Part shown: positions 1,767-31,964 of the stretch, piece after piece
How the letters are laid out: every line of letters begins with the position of its first letter
Numbering within the stretch: the stretch's first letter is position 1
Origin: Lentisphaerota bacterium
Lineage (GTDB): Bacteria > Verrucomicrobiota > Lentisphaeria > Victivallales > Victivallaceae
Reading direction: 5' to 3'
Length of the DNA: 40,179 nt
Assembly: GCA_015061615.1 (NCBI GenBank)
Contig: SUWE01000022.1
Coordinates: forward strand, 1 to 40,179
Program-made: the position numbers and the translations under genes
The notes under the pieces: generated by a model
Told to the model about the DNA's origin: nothing
The model's database searches: none
What the model saw: the letters and a program-made list of their open reading frames with translations, nothing else

Positions 1767-3040
1767 GCTTCCTCCACTTCCGCACCGAGTGCGCGGAGTT
1801 TTCCGGCAAGATCTTCATAACCGCGATAGATCACGTCAGCGCGGCCGATGCGGCTGACTCCCTGAGCGGCAAATGCGGCGATGACCATCGCCATTCCGGC
1901 GCGGATATCGGGACTGGAAAGCGATTCACCGTAAAGCTGAGTTCTTCCGGTGATTATCACGCGGTGCGGGTCACAGACGATCGCATTTGCCCCCATTCCG
2001 ATAAGACGGTCGACAAAGTAGATGCGGCTTTCAAACATCTTTTCAAAGAACATTACCGTTCCGCGGCTCTGAGTGGCGGCGACGATAGTACAGCTCATCA
2101 TATCCGTAGGATACTGCGGCCAGGTGCCGTCGGATATCTGCGGAGTGAATCCGCCGAAATCCGCTTCAATAACCGGATCCTGATTGCCCGCCATAACGAT
2201 CTGATCCGGATTCAGGGTCATCTGCCAGCCCAGCCGTTCAAAGACACGGCGGAGCATCCAGTGGTGGCGCGGCGGAGTTCCGTTGATGGTGATGGGAGTC
2301 CCGGTCGCGGCGGCAAGGGCAAGGAAACTGCCCGCTTCGATATGGTCACCGGAAACATGACAGGTGCATCCGGAAAGTTTTTCCACACCTTCGATGGTGA
2401 CGGTGTTGCTTCCGGCGCCGGAAATTTTTGCGCCCATGGCGTTGAGCATTGCGGCAAGGTCGCACACATGCGGTTCACAGGCGGCATTGTACAGTGTGGT
2501 GGTTCCTTTGGCAGTTGCGGCGGCAATAAGTATCTGTTCGGTTGCCGTAACACTTGCTTCATCGAGGAAAAGTTCCCTGCCGCTCAAGCCGCCGACAGCG
2601 GCAAAGTTGTAGGAGTTCCATCCCGGAGCCATCACTGCGCCGAGTTTGGTCAAGCCGTAAAAGTGACCGTCGAGCCGCCGCCTGCCGATAACATCGCCGC
2701 CGGGAGGAAAGAGTTCAGCCCTGCCGCAGCGGGCAAGCAGAGGTGCGGTAAAGAGGATACTGGTGCGGTTGCGCGAACAGAGTTCTCTGGAAATGACGTG
2801 AGTTTTGACATCTTTACAGCAAAAACGCAAAGTATTTTTTTCAAAGGTGTATTCCGCGCCCAGTGAAGCGGCTATATCGAGCATGGTGTGGACGTCGAGG
2901 ATATCCGGAACATTGGTCAATACCGATTCTTCATCAGTAAGCATCAATGCCGCGATCATGGGCAATACTGCATTTTTGTTGCCTGAAACTGTTATTTCCC
3001 CGCCCCGGATCGTGCCGCCTTTTACGATAAGTGTACTCAT
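1763..3040 (-). CDS. murA: UDP-N-acetylglucosamine 1-carboxyvinyltransferase (MurA), Asp variant
   Basis: First committed step of peptidoglycan synthesis: transfers enolpyruvyl from PEP to UDP-GlcNAc in the cytoplasm. I chose the ATG at 3040 (MSTLIVKGG, 425 aa); AAAGGAGG lies just upstream, and the ATG at 3043 is an alternative. Lys22 and Asn23 sit in SGNKNA as in the E. coli enzyme. The C-terminal DIRAGMAMV and YRGYEDLAGKLRALGA motifs are also typical. The active-site loop reads PPGGDVIGRR, so the usual catalytic Cys115 is Asp116 here (codon 2693-2695). The same substitution is known in Chlamydia and Mycobacterium MurA, which are active and insensitive to fosfomycin. First gene of a murA-lnt pair. 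Confidence 0.96.
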   Translation of the reverse strand: MSTLIVKGGTIRGGEITVSGNKNAVLPMIAALMLTDEESVLTNVPDILDVHTMLDIAASLGAEYTFEKNTLRFCCKDVKTHVISRELCSRNRTSILFTAPLLARCGRAELFPPGGDVIGRRRLDGHFYGLTKLGAVMAPGWNSYNFAAVGGLSGRELFLDEASVTATEQILIAAATAKGTTTLYNAACEPHVCDLAAMLNAMGAKISGAGSNTVTIEGVEKLSGCTCHVSGDHIEAGSFLALAAATGTPITINGTPPRHHWMLRRVFERLGWQMTLNPDQIVMAGNQDPVIEADFGGFTPQISDGTWPQYPTDMMSCTIVAATQSRGTVMFFEKMFESRIYFVDRLIGMGANAIVCDPHRVIITGRTQLYGESLSSPDIRAGMAMVIAAFAAQGVSRIGRADVIYRGYEDLAGKLRALGAEVEEA

Positions 3041-3079
3041 CATTCCTCCTTTGAAATCACCTTGTATGTTACAAAGCAT

Positions 3080-3108
3080 ACATTACCATTAAAAATTGTT
3101 TTTTTCAA
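3080..3108 (-). promoter_or_regulatory. Predicted promoter of murA-lnt
   Basis: On the minus strand TTGAAA (3108-3103), a 17-bp spacer and TAATGT (3085-3080) lie about 40 bases ahead of the murA start. The leader then contains a small dyad TGTATG/CATACA at 3063-3082, which could be a hairpin or a protein site; no function can be assigned. Confidence 0.6.
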
Positions 3109-3117
3109 GTAAAAATC

Positions 3118-3146
3118 TTGCTTTTTTTCACTTTGGAGTATATATT
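3118..3146 (+). promoter_or_regulatory. Predicted promoter of ttcA, abutting the start codon
   Basis: TTGCTT (3118-3123), a 17-bp spacer and TATATT (3141-3146). The -10 box ends only five bases before the ATG at 3152, so a transcript from this promoter would have almost no leader. Confidence 0.5.
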
Positions 3147-3151
3147 TGTGC

Positions 3152-3904
3152 ATGACAGAAAATCGTGAGTTCAAAAAATTGTGCCGCACAGCCGGCGAAT
3201 GCTGTGTCAAATACCGCCTGATCGACGACGGCGACCGTCTGCTGGTCGGTCTTTCCGGCGGCAAGGACAGCTTTATGCTCATGCACCTGCTGGAGCATTT
3301 ATCACAGTGCGCTCCGGTAAAATTCACCTTTGAAGCGGCGACATTCGACCCCGGTTTTGAAAATTTCAATGTGGAAAAAATTTCGGAATACTGCCGTATT
3401 TGCAACTGGAAACACCATGTCGTGAAGATGAATATTCCTGAAATCATCGCGGAAAAGTCGATGGAAGATGCCCCGTGTGTCCTCTGTTCCCGCTTGAGAC
3501 GGGGCAAACTTTACGGTCTGGCGCGGGAGCTGTCTTGCAACAAACTTGCGCTCGGTCAGCATCTTGATGATGTGATAACCAGTTTTATGATGAGTTTGTG
3601 CCGCGGTCAGGGGATAACTTCAATGGCGCCGAAGGTCATACCGCAGAATCCGGAACACCCGGTGATAATCCGTCCCCTGGCGCTGGTTCCGGAAAAACTT
3701 ATCATCAGCTGTGCAGACACGATGGATTTTCCGGAAAAAACCGGCTCCTGCCGTTATGAAAATACGGTAAAAAACGGTGACCGGGCAGCGTTTGCGGAAC
3801 TTATCGGAAATCTGTCGGACAAAATTCCCCATCTGCGGGAAAATATCGCCCATTCACTCACCAGAGTGGAAGCAAAGCACCTGCTTATTCCGCCGGAATC
3901 ATAA
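3152..3904 (+). CDS. ttcA: tRNA 2-thiocytidine(32) synthetase TtcA
   Basis: PP-loop ATPase of the TtcA/TilS group, which thiolates cytidine 32 in tRNA using an iron-sulfur cluster. The 250-aa protein has the SGGKDS P-loop near residue 34 and the PCVLCSRLRRGKLY CxxC signature near residue 110, typical of TtcA, plus a later cysteine (TGSC) that could be the third cluster ligand. A TTG at 3146 would add two residues, but it lies within the -10 box of the best promoter, so the ATG at 3152 is preferred. GGAG at 3135-3138 is 13 bases upstream of it, far for a ribosome site. Its 3' end overlaps the convergent HAD gene by 20 bases. Confidence 0.93.
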   Translation: MTENREFKKLCRTAGECCVKYRLIDDGDRLLVGLSGGKDSFMLMHLLEHLSQCAPVKFTFEAATFDPGFENFNVEKISEYCRICNWKHHVVKMNIPEIIAEKSMEDAPCVLCSRLRRGKLYGLARELSCNKLALGQHLDDVITSFMMSLCRGQGITSMAPKVIPQNPEHPVIIRPLALVPEKLIISCADTMDFPEKTGSCRYENTVKNGDRAAFAELIGNLSDKIPHLRENIAHSLTRVEAKHLLIPPES

Positions 3905-4874
3905 ATTTTGCAAGCTCATCCATATCGTACTTTGAAACGATCAGATGAGTTCCCAGAGCTTTGTGTATTTCGCGCGCCCGCAGTGAGTTTTCATCAAGGC
4001 GGCTCATTGCAAGTGCGCCCATGGCAGCAGCGGCGGCGATCTCACTGCGCCCGTCACCGACGATAAGAAGCTGTGAAGGTTCGATACCTTCTTTGCGGCA
4101 GATATCCAGCATTATCTTTTCTTTGGGGAGCTTTTCGCGCCATGTGGAACCGGCAAGTCGGGTGACGATGCCGTCTTCCGCCGGAGTCAATCCCAATGCG
4201 GCGATCTCCTCAGCCATAGTTCCCTGCGGCATACCGTCAGAAGCGTACTCCACCACAGCTCCGGTGACAAAGTAATTTTTCACCCCGTGGTCATGCAGAA
4301 ATTTCAGGAACTCCACACTCCCCGGAACCCGCCATTTGTCAGGATTTATTTTGGCATCGGCAAGGTTGCGGTCGCGTCCCATTGCCAGAAGCAGAAGTTC
4401 ATACGCCTTGAAAAGAATTGAAGCATCTTCGGCAAGTTTTCTGCGGAATGCAGGGGATTCACCGTAATTTTCAAACTCCTCATCACCGCCCCAGATAGCG
4501 GAAACGACAGCGGAGTTTGTTTCCGGCGAAGAACCTTCAAGCGGATAAAGTCCGTTTTCTCCGGCGCGGCGGAGCGCCCACTCCATTTGAGTAAGCGCGG
4601 ACAATCCGGCAGATTCAATGGCAAAGCGGTTGCCTTCGGGAAAATCCTCAGGAGAAAACCGGGCGATAACGGCAGCTTTTTCAGCGGCGGAGTTTCCTTC
4701 CGCCATACCGTATCGCGCGGTAAATCCGGTGACAAGCGTCATAACCGGGACCCATTCGCGTATCAGCGAGTGGGTCCCGTCGATATCGTGAAAAGCGTGA
4801 GTTATCCTGCGGAGTGAAAAAGATGAACACTTTTCGACGCCCGCAGGGATTTTTCCGGGGTCAATATCCAGCAT
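3885..4874 (-). CDS. HAD-family hydrolase (phosphatase-like)
   Basis: 329-aa cytoplasmic HAD-superfamily protein. Motif I is HDIDGT near residue 30, motif II the Thr in YFVTGAV near 205, motif III the Lys in LPKEKIM, and motif IV VGDGRSE near 275. A largely helical stretch between motifs I and II would be the cap domain. It starts inside the end of the GH130 gene (14-base overlap) and closes the seven-gene operon. Its place next to a GH130 phosphorylase suggests it dephosphorylates a sugar phosphate made by that enzyme, but the substrate cannot be read from the sequence. No terminator is visible; the 3' end runs 20 bases into ttcA. Confidence 0.85.
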   Translation of the reverse strand: MLDIDPGKIPAGVEKCSSFSLRRITHAFHDIDGTHSLIREWVPVMTLVTGFTARYGMAEGNSAAEKAAVIARFSPEDFPEGNRFAIESAGLSALTQMEWALRRAGENGLYPLEGSSPETNSAVVSAIWGGDEEFENYGESPAFRRKLAEDASILFKAYELLLLAMGRDRNLADAKINPDKWRVPGSVEFLKFLHDHGVKNYFVTGAVVEYASDGMPQGTMAEEIAALGLTPAEDGIVTRLAGSTWREKLPKEKIMLDICRKEGIEPSQLLIVGDGRSEIAAAAAMGALAMSRLDENSLRAREIHKALGTHLIVSKYDMDELAKFMIPAE

Positions 4875-28598: not shown

Positions 28599-29261
28599 AT
28601 GAAAATTGGCGAATTGTTCAAAGTTTCATGGCTGAAAACAATTTACTTCAATTACCGTAAACTGCCGTTCAGTCAGGCGTGCAAACTGCCGGTACTGCTC
28701 TATAAAAGGACGCATCTGCGCTCGATAAAGGGTAAAATCATCATCAACTCCAAAGCGAAGTTCGGTCTGGTCAAAATCGGCAGAGAAGATGTCGTTGCGT
28801 GCATGGGCGGCAATACCAGTCTGCTCATTGACGGAACATTGCAGTTCAACGGCAAAGCCACCATCGGCTGCGGTTCGTCGCTGCATATCAGCAAAACCGG
28901 CAGAATGGAACTTGGCGACCGTTTCAGAGTGACGGGAAATGCGGCATTTCTCTGCGAAAAAGAGATGGTCTTCGGCTATTATGCCGGAATCGCGTGGAAC
29001 ACCTTTTTCATGGATAGCGACCGTCACGCAATAATGGATGAAAATGGCAATGTCATAAATGCGCCTGCTCCGATAAAAGTCGGCGATCATGTCTGGATAG
29101 GTTTCAACGTCACCATGCTCAAAGGAACGGTGATCCCCGATGAATGTATCGTTGCCGCAGGAGCGCTTTTGAGCAAGGCTTTTGAGGAAAAAAATTGCAT
29201 CATCGGCGGTTCAGGCGCATCTCAAAAGGTCATCAAGCGGAATATCAGCTGGCAGGAATAA
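28599..29261 (+). CDS. Hexapeptide-repeat (LbetaH) acyltransferase
   Basis: 220 aa. The left-handed beta-helix pattern runs through the middle and C-terminal half: ATIGCGSSLHISKTGRMELGD, then IKVGDHVWIGFNVTMLKGTVIPDECIVAAGALLSKAF near residues 155-195, typical of WcaF/maltose O-acetyltransferase-type enzymes. The N-terminal ~60 residues are basic and lack the usual family signature. It probably O-acetylates a sugar made by the adjacent GT2 enzyme, on exopolysaccharide or another surface glycan. Last gene of this short operon; no convincing terminator follows, and a new promoter begins 36 bases downstream. Confidence 0.88.
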   Translation: MKIGELFKVSWLKTIYFNYRKLPFSQACKLPVLLYKRTHLRSIKGKIIINSKAKFGLVKIGREDVVACMGGNTSLLIDGTLQFNGKATIGCGSSLHISKTGRMELGDRFRVTGNAAFLCEKEMVFGYYAGIAWNTFFMDSDRHAIMDENGNVINAPAPIKVGDHVWIGFNVTMLKGTVIPDECIVAAGALLSKAFEEKNCIIGGSGASQKVIKRNISWQE

Positions 29262-29296: not shown

Positions 29297-29325
29297 TTGA
29301 AAAATCAAAAAACAGCGTTTATATT
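29297..29325 (+). promoter_or_regulatory. Predicted promoter of the aroF-pheA attenuator operon
   Basis: TTGAAA (29297-29302), 17-bp spacer, TATATT (29320-29325). A dyad AAACGCT (29289-29295) / AGCGTTT (29314-29320) brackets the -35 box and spacer and would suit an aromatic-amino-acid repressor, though no regulator is identified. Transcription would start near 29332, leaving a leader of about 470 bases before aroF. Confidence 0.7.
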
Positions 29326-29375
29326 AGGTGAAACGGGCAGTAAAACCGCCGTTATGACGGTGTCCGCTGATTTGC

Positions 29376-29558
29376 CGCGGGATTGACCGTGATGCGCCAC
29401 TGCCGGGTGGGACAGAATTTGGTCTGTTTGCATCCAGTGGATGCAGCGTGAGTCAAGGTCGTGTTTTGCGACGAGCATGGTGCAGGAGTGTACGACTGTA
29501 CTCGACTGTACCAGCGCAGGAGCAAGGCGCGAGATTGACCGCGATGCGCCACTGCCGG
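29376..29558 (+). repeat. Pair of 31-bp direct repeats in the aroF leader
   Basis: Positions 29376-29406 and 29528-29558 agree in 29 of 31 bases and share the core GATGCGCCACTGCCGG. They are 152 bp apart, centre to centre. Between them lie a short hairpin (GCATCCAGTGGATGC) and a tandem CGACTGTAC pair. This 183-base block has no gene in it and makes the leader unusually long for an attenuator; it may be an inserted element. Confidence 0.75.
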
Positions 29559-29593
29559 TAAGATTGAAAAACAAAAAATTTATTGATTAAAAA

Positions 29594-29695
29594 ATGAAGA
29601 AGATTATCAACAGCGCACGATTTTACTTTAGCAGCTGCTTCGCCTTCTACTATTTTAGAAAGCGGGGCGGAGTGCCTGTTGCCGCAATAATGTAA
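29594..29695 (+). CDS. Phe/Tyr-rich attenuator leader peptide
   Basis: A 33-codon frame beginning MKKIINSARFYFSSCFAF and continuing YYFRKRGGVPVAAIM. Residues 10-21 hold five Phe and three Tyr in twelve codons, a density expected of a control region sensing charged tRNA-Phe and tRNA-Tyr. It ends in TAA at 29693-29695, 34 bases ahead of a strong terminator hairpin that precedes aroF-pheA, the genes for aromatic and phenylalanine synthesis. The antiterminator 5' strand (GCGGGG, 29662-29667) lies inside the frame just after the control codons, where a translating ribosome would cover it. No strong ribosome site is seen before the ATG, only an A/T-rich stretch. The peptide itself is probably without further function. 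Confidence 0.85.
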   Translation: MKKIINSARFYFSSCFAFYYFRKRGGVPVAAIM

Positions 29696-29735
29696 TATTA
29701 CGACAATCGTAAACAAGGTCATTCTGATACCCCGC
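29662..29735 (+). promoter_or_regulatory. Antiterminator arm of the aroF-pheA attenuator
   Basis: GCGGGG (29662-29667) can pair with CCCCGC (29730-29735), the 5' arm of the terminator. Further pairing of CCTGTT (29675-29680) with AACAAGG (29712-29718, one bulge) and an apical hairpin TTACGA/TCGTAA (29698-29712) support the fold. A ribosome stalled at the Phe/Tyr codons leaves this strand free and prevents termination. Confidence 0.7.
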
Positions 29736-29761
29736 AGTGAAAAGTCACAGCGGGGTTTTTT
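29730..29761 (+). terminator. Attenuator terminator ahead of aroF
   Basis: CCCCGC-A-GTGA (29730-29740) pairs with TCAC-A-GCGGGG (29745-29755) around a 4-base loop with one A/A mismatch, followed by six T (29756-29761). It lies 45 bases before the aroF start, so it can only act as a regulated terminator in the leader. Confidence 0.88.
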
Positions 29762-29805
29762 ATTAACAGAGGTAATTGCAAATTTCAACATAAGGAAAAG
29801 AAAAA

Positions 29806-30822
29806 ATGATAGTCATTCTCAAGGAAAATCCGGAAAAACATCAACTTGACAATCTGCTTTCATGGATCGAAAGACAGGGCGTGACCGCCCACATATCCCA
29901 CGGTATCCACCAGACAGTCATGGGACTTGTCGGCGATACAGCAAAAATCGACATTGATCTGCTCTGCCAGATGGAGATCGTGGAAACGGTCAAACGTGTT
30001 CAGGAACCGTTCAAAAATGCCAACCGTAAATTCCATCCGCTGGATACGGTCATCAAAGTGAACGATGCCGTTATCGGCGGCGGCGGAATGACGGTCATAG
30101 CCGGACCCTGTTCGGTGGAAAGTGAAGAACAGATCATCACCGTTGCCCGCAGTGTCAAAGCCTCCGGAGCGACACTTCTGCGCGGCGGCGCCTTCAAGCC
30201 CCGCACCTCCCCCTACGCCTTCCAGGGATTGCGCGAAGAAGGAATCAAACTGCTGCTTGAGGCAAAAAAAGATACCGGACTGCCCATCGTTACCGAAATC
30301 ATGGATTTGTCACAACTTGATCTTTTCGATGAGGTCGATGTCATTCAGGTCGGTGCGCGCAACATGCAGAACTTCGAGCTGCTCAAACAGCTCGGTCACC
30401 TCAACAAGCCGATTTTGCTCAAACGCGGTCTGGCGAACACCTATCAGGAACTGCTTATGAGTGCGGAATACATTATGGCATTCGGCAATGAAAATGTCAT
30501 TCTCTGTGAACGCGGCGTGCGCACCTTTGAAAATTACACCCGCAATACACTGGATATATCCGCGATACCGTCACTGAAAACGCTTTCACACCTGCCGATA
30601 GTGATCGATCCGAGTCATGCTGCGGGAATCGCCCGTTTTGTTTCCCCGCTGTCACTGGCGGCAGTCGCCGCCGGAGCCGACGGATTGATAATCGAAGTCC
30701 ACAACGACCCCACCCACGCCCTGTGTGACGGTATGCAGAGTCTGACCATGCCGGAATTTGATAAACTCATGAAAAAAATCAATATAATCAAAGAAGCTGA
30801 AATGAGTGTAAAGGAACTGTAA
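29806..30822 (+). CDS. aroF: 3-deoxy-7-phosphoheptulonate (DAHP) synthase, type I-beta with N-terminal regulatory domain
   Basis: First step of the shikimate pathway: condenses PEP and erythrose 4-phosphate in the cytoplasm. The 338-aa protein has a ~70-residue ferredoxin-like N-terminal domain (MIVILKENPEKHQLDNLLSWIERQG) as in Thermotoga-type enzymes, where it mediates feedback inhibition by Tyr or Phe. The catalytic barrel follows with AGPCSVESEEQI, KPRTSPYAFQG, LLKRG and VIDPSHAAG, which hold substrate- and metal-binding residues. TAAGGAAAAG precedes the start. pheA follows two bases after the stop. Expression is probably set by the upstream Phe/Tyr attenuator, and activity by the N-terminal domain. 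Confidence 0.96.
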   Translation: MIVILKENPEKHQLDNLLSWIERQGVTAHISHGIHQTVMGLVGDTAKIDIDLLCQMEIVETVKRVQEPFKNANRKFHPLDTVIKVNDAVIGGGGMTVIAGPCSVESEEQIITVARSVKASGATLLRGGAFKPRTSPYAFQGLREEGIKLLLEAKKDTGLPIVTEIMDLSQLDLFDEVDVIQVGARNMQNFELLKQLGHLNKPILLKRGLANTYQELLMSAEYIMAFGNENVILCERGVRTFENYTRNTLDISAIPSLKTLSHLPIVIDPSHAAGIARFVSPLSLAAVAAGADGLIIEVHNDPTHALCDGMQSLTMPEFDKLMKKINIIKEAEMSVKEL

Positions 30823-30824
30823 AA

Positions 30825-31964
30825 ATGAATCTCAACGATGCCAGAAACGAAATCGACCGTATCGACCGCGAAATCCTTCCGCTGTTCGCCCGCCGCATGG
30901 AACTCGGCGGCATCATCGGTCAGCTCAAGGAAGCGGCAGGGCTCCCGGTGGAAAACAGTGAACGGGAACGGGAAATTCTGCTGAAAATCACCCGCGAATC
31001 AGGCAATGAACTGGGCAGTTCCGCAAGAATACTCTTTTCCACCCTCTTTGAATTGAGCAAATCCTACCAGCGCCGTCTGCACACTAAAGACGGGGAATTT
31101 GAGCAGAAAATCACCAAATCCCTTGCGGAAACTCCGGCACTTTTCCCTGCGACCGCCCGCGTCGCCTGCTGCGGAGTTCCCGGCGCTTACGCCCAGCTTG
31201 CCGCCGACAAACTTTTCCAACTTGCGGATATAACCTACTTCAATGACTTCAATGCGGTCTTTCAGGCTGTGGAAAAAAATCTCTGTGAATACGGTGTTCT
31301 GCCGATAGAAAACTCCACTTCCGGCACGATTGATCAGGTTTACGATCTTATGCTGGGTCACAAGTTCCATATCGTCCGCAGCTGCCGTCTGAAGGTGCGT
31401 CACTGTCTGCTGCTGCCCGCCGGAGCGAAACTTTCCGATATCACCGAAGTGATTTCACACGAACAGGGGTTGAAACAGTGCGCAAACTACATAAAAACCC
31501 TCGGCAAAGTGAAACTCACCACTGCGGCAAGCACGGCGGTTGCCGCAAAAACCGTCAGTGAATCCGGCAGAAAAGATATAGCCGCGATCGCGGCGAAAGA
31601 GTGTGCGGGTATCTACGGACTTCAGATCGGAGCGGAAAATATTCAGGATAAAGACTCCAATTACACCCGGTTCATCTGCATTTCACAGAATCCGGAGATC
31701 TATCCGGGGTCAAACAAAATCAGCATCATGGGTCTGCTCCCGCACAAACCCGGCGCCCTGTACAGCCTGCTTGCCCGCTTCGCGGTTCTGGGTGTGAACC
31801 TGAGCAAACTTGAAAGCCGTCCGAAACGCGACGGAGATTTCGAGTACATGTTCTACTTCGACTTTGAAGCGTCTATGGCTGACCCCGAACTGCGGACTCT
31901 GATCGCCGAACTGGTTTCAGAAGAAAACAGATTTACTTTTCTGGGTAATTACAGTGAAATTTAA
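30825..31964 (+). CDS. pheA: Bifunctional chorismate mutase/prephenate dehydratase
   Basis: 379-aa P-protein converting chorismate to prephenate and then phenylpyruvate. An AroQ-type chorismate mutase domain occupies ~1-90 (ARNEIDRIDREILPLFARRMEL), the dehydratase domain ~115-285 (GVPGAYAQLAADKLF, LPIENSTSGTIDQVYDL, KDSNYTRFICIS with the catalytic TRF), and an ACT domain ~295-379 with KPGALYSLLARFAVLGVNLSKLESRP, the Phe-binding ESRP motif. Phe feedback inhibition is therefore expected. AAGGA within the end of aroF serves as ribosome site, and only two bases separate the genes. A terminator follows, so the unit is leader-aroF-pheA. Confidence 0.96.
   Translation: MNLNDARNEIDRIDREILPLFARRMELGGIIGQLKEAAGLPVENSEREREILLKITRESGNELGSSARILFSTLFELSKSYQRRLHTKDGEFEQKITKSLAETPALFPATARVACCGVPGAYAQLAADKLFQLADITYFNDFNAVFQAVEKNLCEYGVLPIENSTSGTIDQVYDLMLGHKFHIVRSCRLKVRHCLLLPAGAKLSDITEVISHEQGLKQCANYIKTLGKVKLTTAASTAVAAKTVSESGRKDIAAIAAKECAGIYGLQIGAENIQDKDSNYTRFICISQNPEIYPGSNKISIMGLLPHKPGALYSLLARFAVLGVNLSKLESRPKRDGDFEYMFYFDFEASMADPELRTLIAELVSEENRFTFLGNYSEI

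Follow-up and report, generated by a model that had tools for sequence, protein, structure and literature searches.

The window (the whole stretch of DNA that was analysed, 40,179 nt of a Lentisphaerota contig) carries adjacent genes for 3-deoxy-7-phosphoheptulonate (DAHP) synthase and chorismate mutase/prephenate dehydratase, and the locus raises the question of what lies ahead of this pair and how it might govern their transcription. The nearest upstream gene on the same strand ends at 29261, about 470 nt ahead of a hairpin that precedes the pair. An initial annotation had placed a leader peptide and transcription attenuator at 29594–29761; these coordinates are right, and all the parts that it listed were found in their places:

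29594–29695, + strand: leader peptide frame of 33 codons, MKKIINSARFYFSSCFAFYYFRKRGGVPVAAIM (translation of the letters)
29621–29656, + strand: control codons 10–21, FYFSSCFAFYYF (Phe kept at codons 10, 12, 16, 18 and 21)
29607–29650, + strand: segment 1 (duplex calculation; helix 1:2 covaries when its pairing is defined from the sequences of relatives)
29655–29681, + strand: segment 2, within the frame (duplex calculation; synonymous-codon shuffles)
29715–29736, + strand: segment 3, antiterminator partner and terminator 5' arm (duplex calculation; covariation)
29729–29761, + strand: intrinsic terminator, stem 29729–29756 and T run 29756–29761 (sequence and duplex calculation)
29806–30822, + strand: aroF, DAHP synthase (NF006421, 484 bits, cut-off 335)
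30825–31964, + strand: pheA, chorismate mutase/prephenate dehydratase (NF008865, 212 bits)

Judged from its sequence, the region very probably controls the aroF-pheA operon by ribosome-mediated transcription attenuation, a reading to which we assign a probability of roughly 0.9. The pheA gene starts 2 nt past the aroF stop codon, and readthrough of the terminator would presumably extend into it; its score lies just below the NF008865 cut-off of 219, and the chorismate mutase part is present. In 18 leader-bearing loci of the window's order, pheA likewise adjoins aroF.

The frame begins with ATG at 29594 and ends with TAA at 29693–29695, and its codons 10–21 contain five Phe and three Tyr, in agreement with the 33 codons and the density originally described. 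No clear ribosome-binding site was found ahead of the window's leader ATG; AGGA- or GAGG-like sites were seen in the leaders of several relatives. The terminator hairpin starts 33 nt past the leader stop codon, with CCCCGC (29730–29735) and GCGGGG (29750–29755) as its arms and six T at 29756–29761, and is followed by aroF and pheA, so that the described order of stop codon, GC-rich hairpin, T run and genes holds. A simple terminator scanner missed this hairpin, probably because of a 1×1 A/A mismatch in the stem, and listed two other sites, against 1.5 expected. A terminator lies between leader and first gene in the window and in 29 leaders of its order and kin, and in a wider set of 92 leaders, a crude finder with a threshold of −8 kcal/mol detected a terminator in 66.

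The alternative pairing of CCCCGC with an in-frame GCGGGG, also proposed by the initial annotation together with supporting helices, was found and is conserved in relatives. In this antiterminator, GCGGGG (29662–29667) pairs with CCCCGC (29730–29735) and CGGAGTG (29668–29674) with CATTCTG (29720–29726), the two helices being split by a 3-nt bulge (ATA). As CCCCGC is common to the antiterminator and the terminator 5' arm, the two folds are mutually exclusive. Segment 2 has a second potential partner: it can pair with segment 3 via 29662–29677, or with segment 1 via 29656–29681. The latter pairing, helix 1:2, consists of two helices around the first control codons. In the outer one, CAACAG (29608–29613) and GCAC (29615–29618) pair with GTGC and CTGTTG; in the inner one, CTGCTTCGC (29635–29643) and TTCTA (29645–29649) pair with TAGAA and GCGGGGCGG. 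The isolated duplex energies in the window are −29.0 kcal/mol for 1:2, −25.5 kcal/mol for 2:3 and −17.9 kcal/mol for the terminator hairpin. The fold of 29580–29770 reaches −54.6 kcal/mol, compared to a mean of −39.3 kcal/mol for shuffled sequences (z = −3.84), and none of 200 shuffles was as good.

Related loci were collected from two sources. A search for AroF in 100 related genomes gave a match at E 0.001 in all of them, many of these being weak, at about 30% identity; from a collection of 84,980 species, the best 80 of 593 relatives were taken. The resulting 150 aroF units were reduced to 145 by removing identical upstream ends, and to 141 by removing four with <300 nt upstream. A leader was counted when a frame with at least 7 Phe or Tyr (F/Y) in 12 codons lay within 300 nt upstream of aroF, a threshold that misses some good leaders (L014, L133). 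Such a frame was present in 70 of the 120 aroF homologues of ≥60% identity and in 0 of 21 homologues of <60% identity; dinucleotide shuffles contained one in 8 of 2400 cases, and other stretches of the same loci in 6 of 7382. The upstream regions of relatives thus retain the F/Y codon clusters and, as described below, covarying stems. Neither of the two comparative outcomes that the initial annotation took as refuting it, a lack of conservation of the frame or of the stems, was observed.

The sample was ranked by likeness to the window's AroF and includes many metagenome bins, so that the following counts are no census; records with strain names in it are Angelakisella massiliensis (L083), Aminicella lysinilytica (L092) and Yanshouia hominis (L062). 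Among units of ≥60% identity, the frame was found in 49 of 65 Bacillota loci, 17 of 38 in the window's family and 2 of 9 in family f4; it was also found in 2 of 2 named Lentisphaerota and 1 of 2 Planctomycetota, and in none of 3 Spirochaetota, 1 Actinomycetota and 1 Bacteroidota. The arrangement is therefore common in Bacillota and recurs across the window's order, and it is not unique to this locus; aroF leaders of this kind are also in print, for Corynebacterium glutamicum and, as a candidate, for Acholeplasma. A covariance model of the leader core, run with strict filters at which weak matches are lost, gave 19 sites in 17 of the 100 related genomes, 13 of them the model's own sequences. 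Every one of the 19 immediately precedes an aroF match, and no site was found at any other gene.

Some close aroF copies have no such F/Y frame. Within the window's clade, seven paralogues are without a leader (L016, L030, L122, L123, the second copy of L128, L129 and L130), and the leader is absent from the g41-type rows of f4. In L128 (genome G015), two aroF copies at 1988 and 7188 are about 5 kb apart; one has the leader and pheA, and the other has no leader.

The leaders themselves were compared in two alignments: A2, comprising the 13 closest leaders, which have an RKRGG-like core, and A1, comprising 26 of the 29 leaders. Counting runs that are common by descent repeatedly, gap runs had a length that is a multiple of three in 33 of 35 cases within the frame and 7 of 70 past the stop in A2, and in 80 of 82 versus 29 of 131 in A1. 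The start codon is ATG in 13 of 13 A2 leaders. From these in-frame indels and the F/Y density, we infer that the leader frame is translated, as it presumably would be in vivo.

The reading of Tyr, which had been claimed alongside Phe, is less secure. In A2, Phe is found at codons 10, 16 and 18 in 12 of 13 leaders each (with Tyr in the remaining one at codon 10), is kept at codon 12, and is found at codon 21 in 11 of 13 (Tyr in two). Codons 10 and 12 are in the loop of helix 1:2, and their conservation is therefore not explained by pairing. Tyr, on the other hand, occurs at codon 11 in 8 of 13 leaders; codon 19 is present in 12 rows and is Tyr in 4 of them, and no leader but the window's has a codon 20. 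Codons 11 and 19 often specify Ser, Asp, Cys, Phe or Gln instead. It is thus conceivable, at somewhat below even odds, that Phe alone is sensed, with the Tyr codons serving as neutral fillers that preserve the structure or reflecting near-cognate drift. The conserved Phe and variable Tyr in the 13-leader core agree with this, as does the C. glutamicum aroR leader, which contains Phe-Tyr-Phe and for which the accessible text of PMC11802643 reports a response to Phe and no effect of Tyr supply. Against it, Tyr is strongly enriched over the 92 candidate leaders, a few of which are spurious (435 F, 301 Y and 4 W), and is as frequent as Phe in L021, L029 and L032; in addition, the Tyr share hardly differs between leaders of aroF-pheA and aroF-tyrA loci (means of 0.37 and 0.45), a comparison confounded by lineage. 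Phe is the safer reading of this codon pattern, and sensing of Tyr as well is possible.

We also considered whether the sensed amino acid is tied to the downstream gene, and rejected this, as no consistent link was seen. The mean Tyr shares were 0.37 for aroF-pheA (19 loci), 0.45 for aroF-tyrA (52) and 0.34 for loci with no downstream match (21). In genome G008, Tyr is more frequent in the leader of the tyrA-type copy (L127) than in that of the pheA copy (L013), and in G003 the order is reversed (L018 versus L131).

No chorismate-binding enzyme (PF00425, which we take to be the TrpE/PabB type) was found in the window's genome, which is 84.65% complete. Among the partial genomes of the genus, 27 of 34, and 11 of the 14 best ones, were without a PF00425 match, while TyrA (PF02153) was found in 34 of 34. 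Such an apparent absence of a TrpE-type enzyme from most genomes of the genus would suit a DAHP synthase that is adjusted to Phe and Tyr alone, but it is not the general reason, as shown by the Bacillota leaders. In another contig of the window's genome (L198, contig C49 of G000), positions 1989–4512 hold an 841-residue frame with a TyrA domain, and comparable long frames were seen in further genomes of the genus; the part before TyrA is presumably a 3-dehydroquinate synthase, and the preceding frame presumably an EPSP synthase.

Base-pair changes were counted on A2 only, because the divergent leaders in A1 are one base out of register in segment 2. For helix 1:2, 94.3% of the cells were paired and six pairs showed changes at both positions; 0 of 500 shuffles were as high on any of five measures, and slid controls reached at most 55.1%. 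For helix 2:3, 92.3% of the cells were paired and four pairs had changed on both sides, which 1 of 500 shuffles equalled, while 48 of 500 were as high in the number of pair types; slid controls reached at most 62.1%. The kinship of the rows remains in all these counts. The three strands can also be seen to change together: L017 has CTTTGC, GCAGGG and CCCTGC where others have CTTCGC, GCGGGG and CCCCGC, L026 and L031 have GGGGTTTGC with GCAAACTCC, and L119 and L131 have GGGGCTTGC with GCAAGCTCC.

An alignment-free comparison of each leader's own partner strands with those of other leaders is clearer than the covariation shuffles. For 12 divergent leaders, the energy with their own partners was −26.7 versus −21.0 kcal/mol for 2:3 and −24.7 versus −17.8 kcal/mol for 1:2, with 0 of 20,000 permutations as good in either case, and the advantage also holds for both helices over 28 leaders. 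When the codons were shuffled with the peptide kept, the pairing of the window was reached in 0 of 300 shuffles for 2:3 and 3 of 300 for 1:2. Over 27 leaders, no more than 15 of 300 shuffles were as good in 16 leaders for 2:3 and in 24 for 1:2; the exceptions were L012, L036 and L056 for 1:2, and L038, L056 and L021 were the weakest for 2:3. The windows for these 1:2 and 2:3 tests were set on the real optimum, which somewhat favours the real sequence. L125, which has a different layout, was left out of both the own-partner and codon-shuffle tests, and L037 of the codon shuffles. Taken together, the comparisons indicate selection on the leader frame and on both helices.

One leader in a Victivallales bin (L056, positions 2759–2950) is Tyr-rich, YWRYLYTYSYRFYF, and is a very plain three-strand case in which segments 1 and 3 are both GCGATACC, opposite GGTATCGC in the frame. 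The automatic duplex calculation picked another 2:3 pairing in this leader.

Outside Victivallales, the antiterminator was evaluated in the same way, leaving out L132. With segment 3 restricted to the terminator 5' arm, the own-partner advantage was weak (−12.8 versus −11.5 kcal/mol; 4 of 10,000 permutations; n = 41). With the loop and 14 nt upstream included it was clearer (−19.6 versus −15.9 kcal/mol; 0 of 10,000; n = 40), although this is not an independent test, because the longer window was picked after viewing the pairing of those leaders; a leader's own partner was among the top tenth in only 14 of 40. In eight Oscillospiraceae-type leaders, the sequences differ and the logic is kept: an in-frame CGGTTTGGCTG can pair back with GCCGAATACCG and forward with the terminator's CAGCCGAACCG.

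These comparisons bear on the proposal that the frame encodes a real small protein, perhaps with a membrane or regulatory role, and that the terminator merely tunes read-through. Conservation of the frame and its in-frame evolution are what a protein would show, but the 33-residue product matched no NCBIfam family, and L133 and the L029-like leaders change residues and keep the helix, so that the sequence follows the needs of RNA pairing. Furthermore, the peptide varies between groups while the three-way pairing persists. We consider a small protein of this kind very improbable.

Alternatively, a T-box, a riboswitch or a protein-bound leader might operate the terminator, with the F/Y frame incidental. 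T-boxes often control such genes in Firmicutes. Nevertheless, the whole window gave no Rfam match at the gathering score, RF00230 (presumably the T-box) included, and only chance-level hits were obtained for 29400–29850 at permissive settings. There was no match in 39 further loci either (20 leader-bearing and 19 others). As a positive control, E. coli pheL scored 132.3 bits against RF01859 (Phe_leader; gathering score 55). The window was below the gathering score for RF01859 and reached 14.7 bits against RF00513 (Trp_leader; cut-off 41). A T-box or riboswitch would also leave the F/Y density and the conservation of the frame unexplained, and this mode of control is comparably improbable, even though the available portion of PMC2965389 states in general form that T-boxes control genes of this kind. 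Least credible of all, with next to no weight left, is a chance AT-rich frame in front of an ordinary terminator of an upstream transcript: F/Y codons are AT-rich, and the rate at which the fold scanner picks up chance sites is similar, but this is contradicted by the F/Y-density, pairing, covariation and gap-run controls and by the about 470 nt that separate the hairpin from the upstream gene.

The preferred reading, a ribosome-mediated attenuator, has several known counterparts. E. coli pheL-pheA (RF01859) also has a Phe-rich leader, a terminator and an antiterminator before a chorismate mutase/prephenate dehydratase gene, but in the window the operon starts with aroF, and segment 2 is part of the leader frame instead of lying beyond the stop. 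E. coli trpL (RF00513) shares the three-way segment exchange and shows the same equilibrium behaviour in the model described below; its control codons are Trp. The C. glutamicum aroR-aroF attenuator (Neshat et al. 2014, as described in the accessible text of PMC11802643 and PMC4046766) has a Phe-Tyr-Phe leader before a DAHP synthase gene, and stalling raises transcription under Phe limitation. The likeness to the window is one of mechanism only, as the window is from another phylum, has eight F/Y in 12 codons and has pheA in the operon. The Acholeplasma element uORFC-13-1, compared by its description in the available part of PMC8632094, is a short Phe frame (at least one Phe) with a terminator, located exclusively upstream of aroF, with 24 representatives from Acholeplasma and environmental sequences, and attenuation was proposed for it. 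In the portion of PMC2965389 (2010) at hand, no such leader is said to have been shown outside Proteobacteria and Actinobacteria before that paper's own His leader of bacilli.

Nothing was found in the literature on leader peptide attenuation under Lentisphaer- names, and, judged by titles and with subscription papers aside, none dealt with attenuation of aroF in either Clostridia or Lentisphaerota. Together with the lack of an Rfam match and the aroF leaders known from C. glutamicum and, as a candidate, Acholeplasma, this suggests that the kind is known and the family apparently unlisted. The leader probably represents a genuine, hitherto unlisted relative of the classic trp and phe attenuators.

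A quick tree of 140 AroF proteins, with SH-aLRT as its sole support measure, places 120 rows in a single group (99) in which Bacillota are interspersed with the window's family and f4; 20 AroF of the order's other families are apart from it. Within this group, 37 rows of f1 and f4, including the window, form one clade (96), with further f1 rows elsewhere. This mixing, in a biased sample, suggests transfer of aroF between phyla. We are inclined to favour, with some reserve, a large unlisted class of aroF attenuators in gut Bacillota and Lentisphaerota-type bacteria that is carried with aroF between phyla. In this class the decision, made by the protector helix and the antiterminator strand, would be taken inside the frame before the stop, the residues would be set jointly by control codons and RNA pairing, and the sequence would be re-invented while the three-strand logic is kept. 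With these leaders, phyla that have few documented examples gain a group of ribosome-mediated attenuators that is well supported and apparently unlisted. The leaders suggest how entry into the shikimate pathway is set in many gut anaerobes. With its extensive three-strand covariation, the family also opens the balance between coding and structure to study.

The attenuator is predicted to operate as follows. RNA polymerase would make the leader, and a ribosome would start on the 33-codon frame. When charged tRNA-Phe, and perhaps tRNA-Tyr, is short, the ribosome would wait on codons 10 to about 19 and cover segment 1, leaving segment 2 (29662–29677) free for the nascent segment 3. The 2:3 pairing would take up the terminator 5' arm, and the polymerase would continue into aroF-pheA. 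With Phe in good supply, the ribosome would pass segment 2 and proceed to the stop. Helix 1:2 would then re-form behind it, or the ribosome would keep segment 2 occupied; either way segment 3 would be left for segment 4, and transcription would end near 29761.

We evaluated this scheme with folding models, leaving out L125 and L037. In snapshots in which the terminator 3' arm is not yet made, the 2:3 core of the window had a probability of 1.00 with the ribosomal A site from F10 to F18, 0.83 at Y19, 0.06 at Y20, and 0.00 from there to about V29. With the ribosome in mid-cluster, the core exceeded 0.5 in 27 of 27 leaders; the number was 22 with the ribosome at the first F/Y, 8 at the last F/Y, 10 at the stop codon and 16 without a ribosome. 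The placing of the control codons therefore fits stalling. For the window without a ribosome, the 2:3 core remained at 0.96, and with a ribosome on the stop it was 0.99 if the RNA behind may pair and 0.00 if it may not. By a looser measure without a ribosome, the window gave 0.79, versus 0.04 for pheL and 0.30 for trpL.

In the full transcript at equilibrium, the terminator of the window had a probability of 0.97 at every ribosome position. Of the E. coli yardsticks, trpL behaves likewise, its terminator staying at 0.94–0.96, while that of pheL switches from 0.97 to 0.07–0.10. A simple equilibrium competition thus does not describe the window's own leader, which does not switch in the model, and this counts against a purely thermodynamic switch. 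Since the terminator wins at equilibrium, switching, if any, would depend on the order of transcription events, i.e., it would be kinetic. The OFF state predicted for the window's leader is likewise unexplained by equilibrium. The core of segment 2 is about 25–26 nt before the stop, and a ribosome at the stop therefore probably does not cover it; the OFF signal is likely to be the re-forming of helix 1:2 behind the ribosome. Pairing and covariation were found for this protector helix, and its win over 2:3 in the window is unsupported by the equilibrium model.

Upstream of the leader, three further features were located:

29297–29325, + strand: candidate sigma-70-type promoter, TTGAAA, 17 nt, TATATT (10 of 12 consensus positions)
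29535–29564, + strand: second promoter-like site, weak, TTGACC, 18 nt, TAAGAT (9 of 12 matches)
29421–29565, no strand assigned: dispersed repeat copy, outside the switch (same-genome matches)

The first site is 268 nt ahead of the leader ATG, and chance alone would yield 1.6 sites like it over the 1.2 kb that was scanned; the second, 29 nt ahead of the ATG, lies at the repeat's end. In relatives, a promoter-like site with 9–11 of 12 matches is found 19–51 nt ahead of the leader ATG in 26 of 28 cases. The repeat sits between the first site and the leader. It has 28 matches of varying length in the window's genome, itself counted, and the best other copies are 85–92% identical over about 120–180 nt; it seems to have been inserted (29340–29570) into the 5' end of the attenuator. 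At its two ends, the inserted stretch has a 31-nt direct repeat, 94% identical, at 29376–29406 and 29528–29558, which gives the impression that the end of the dispersed repeat is present in two flanking copies.
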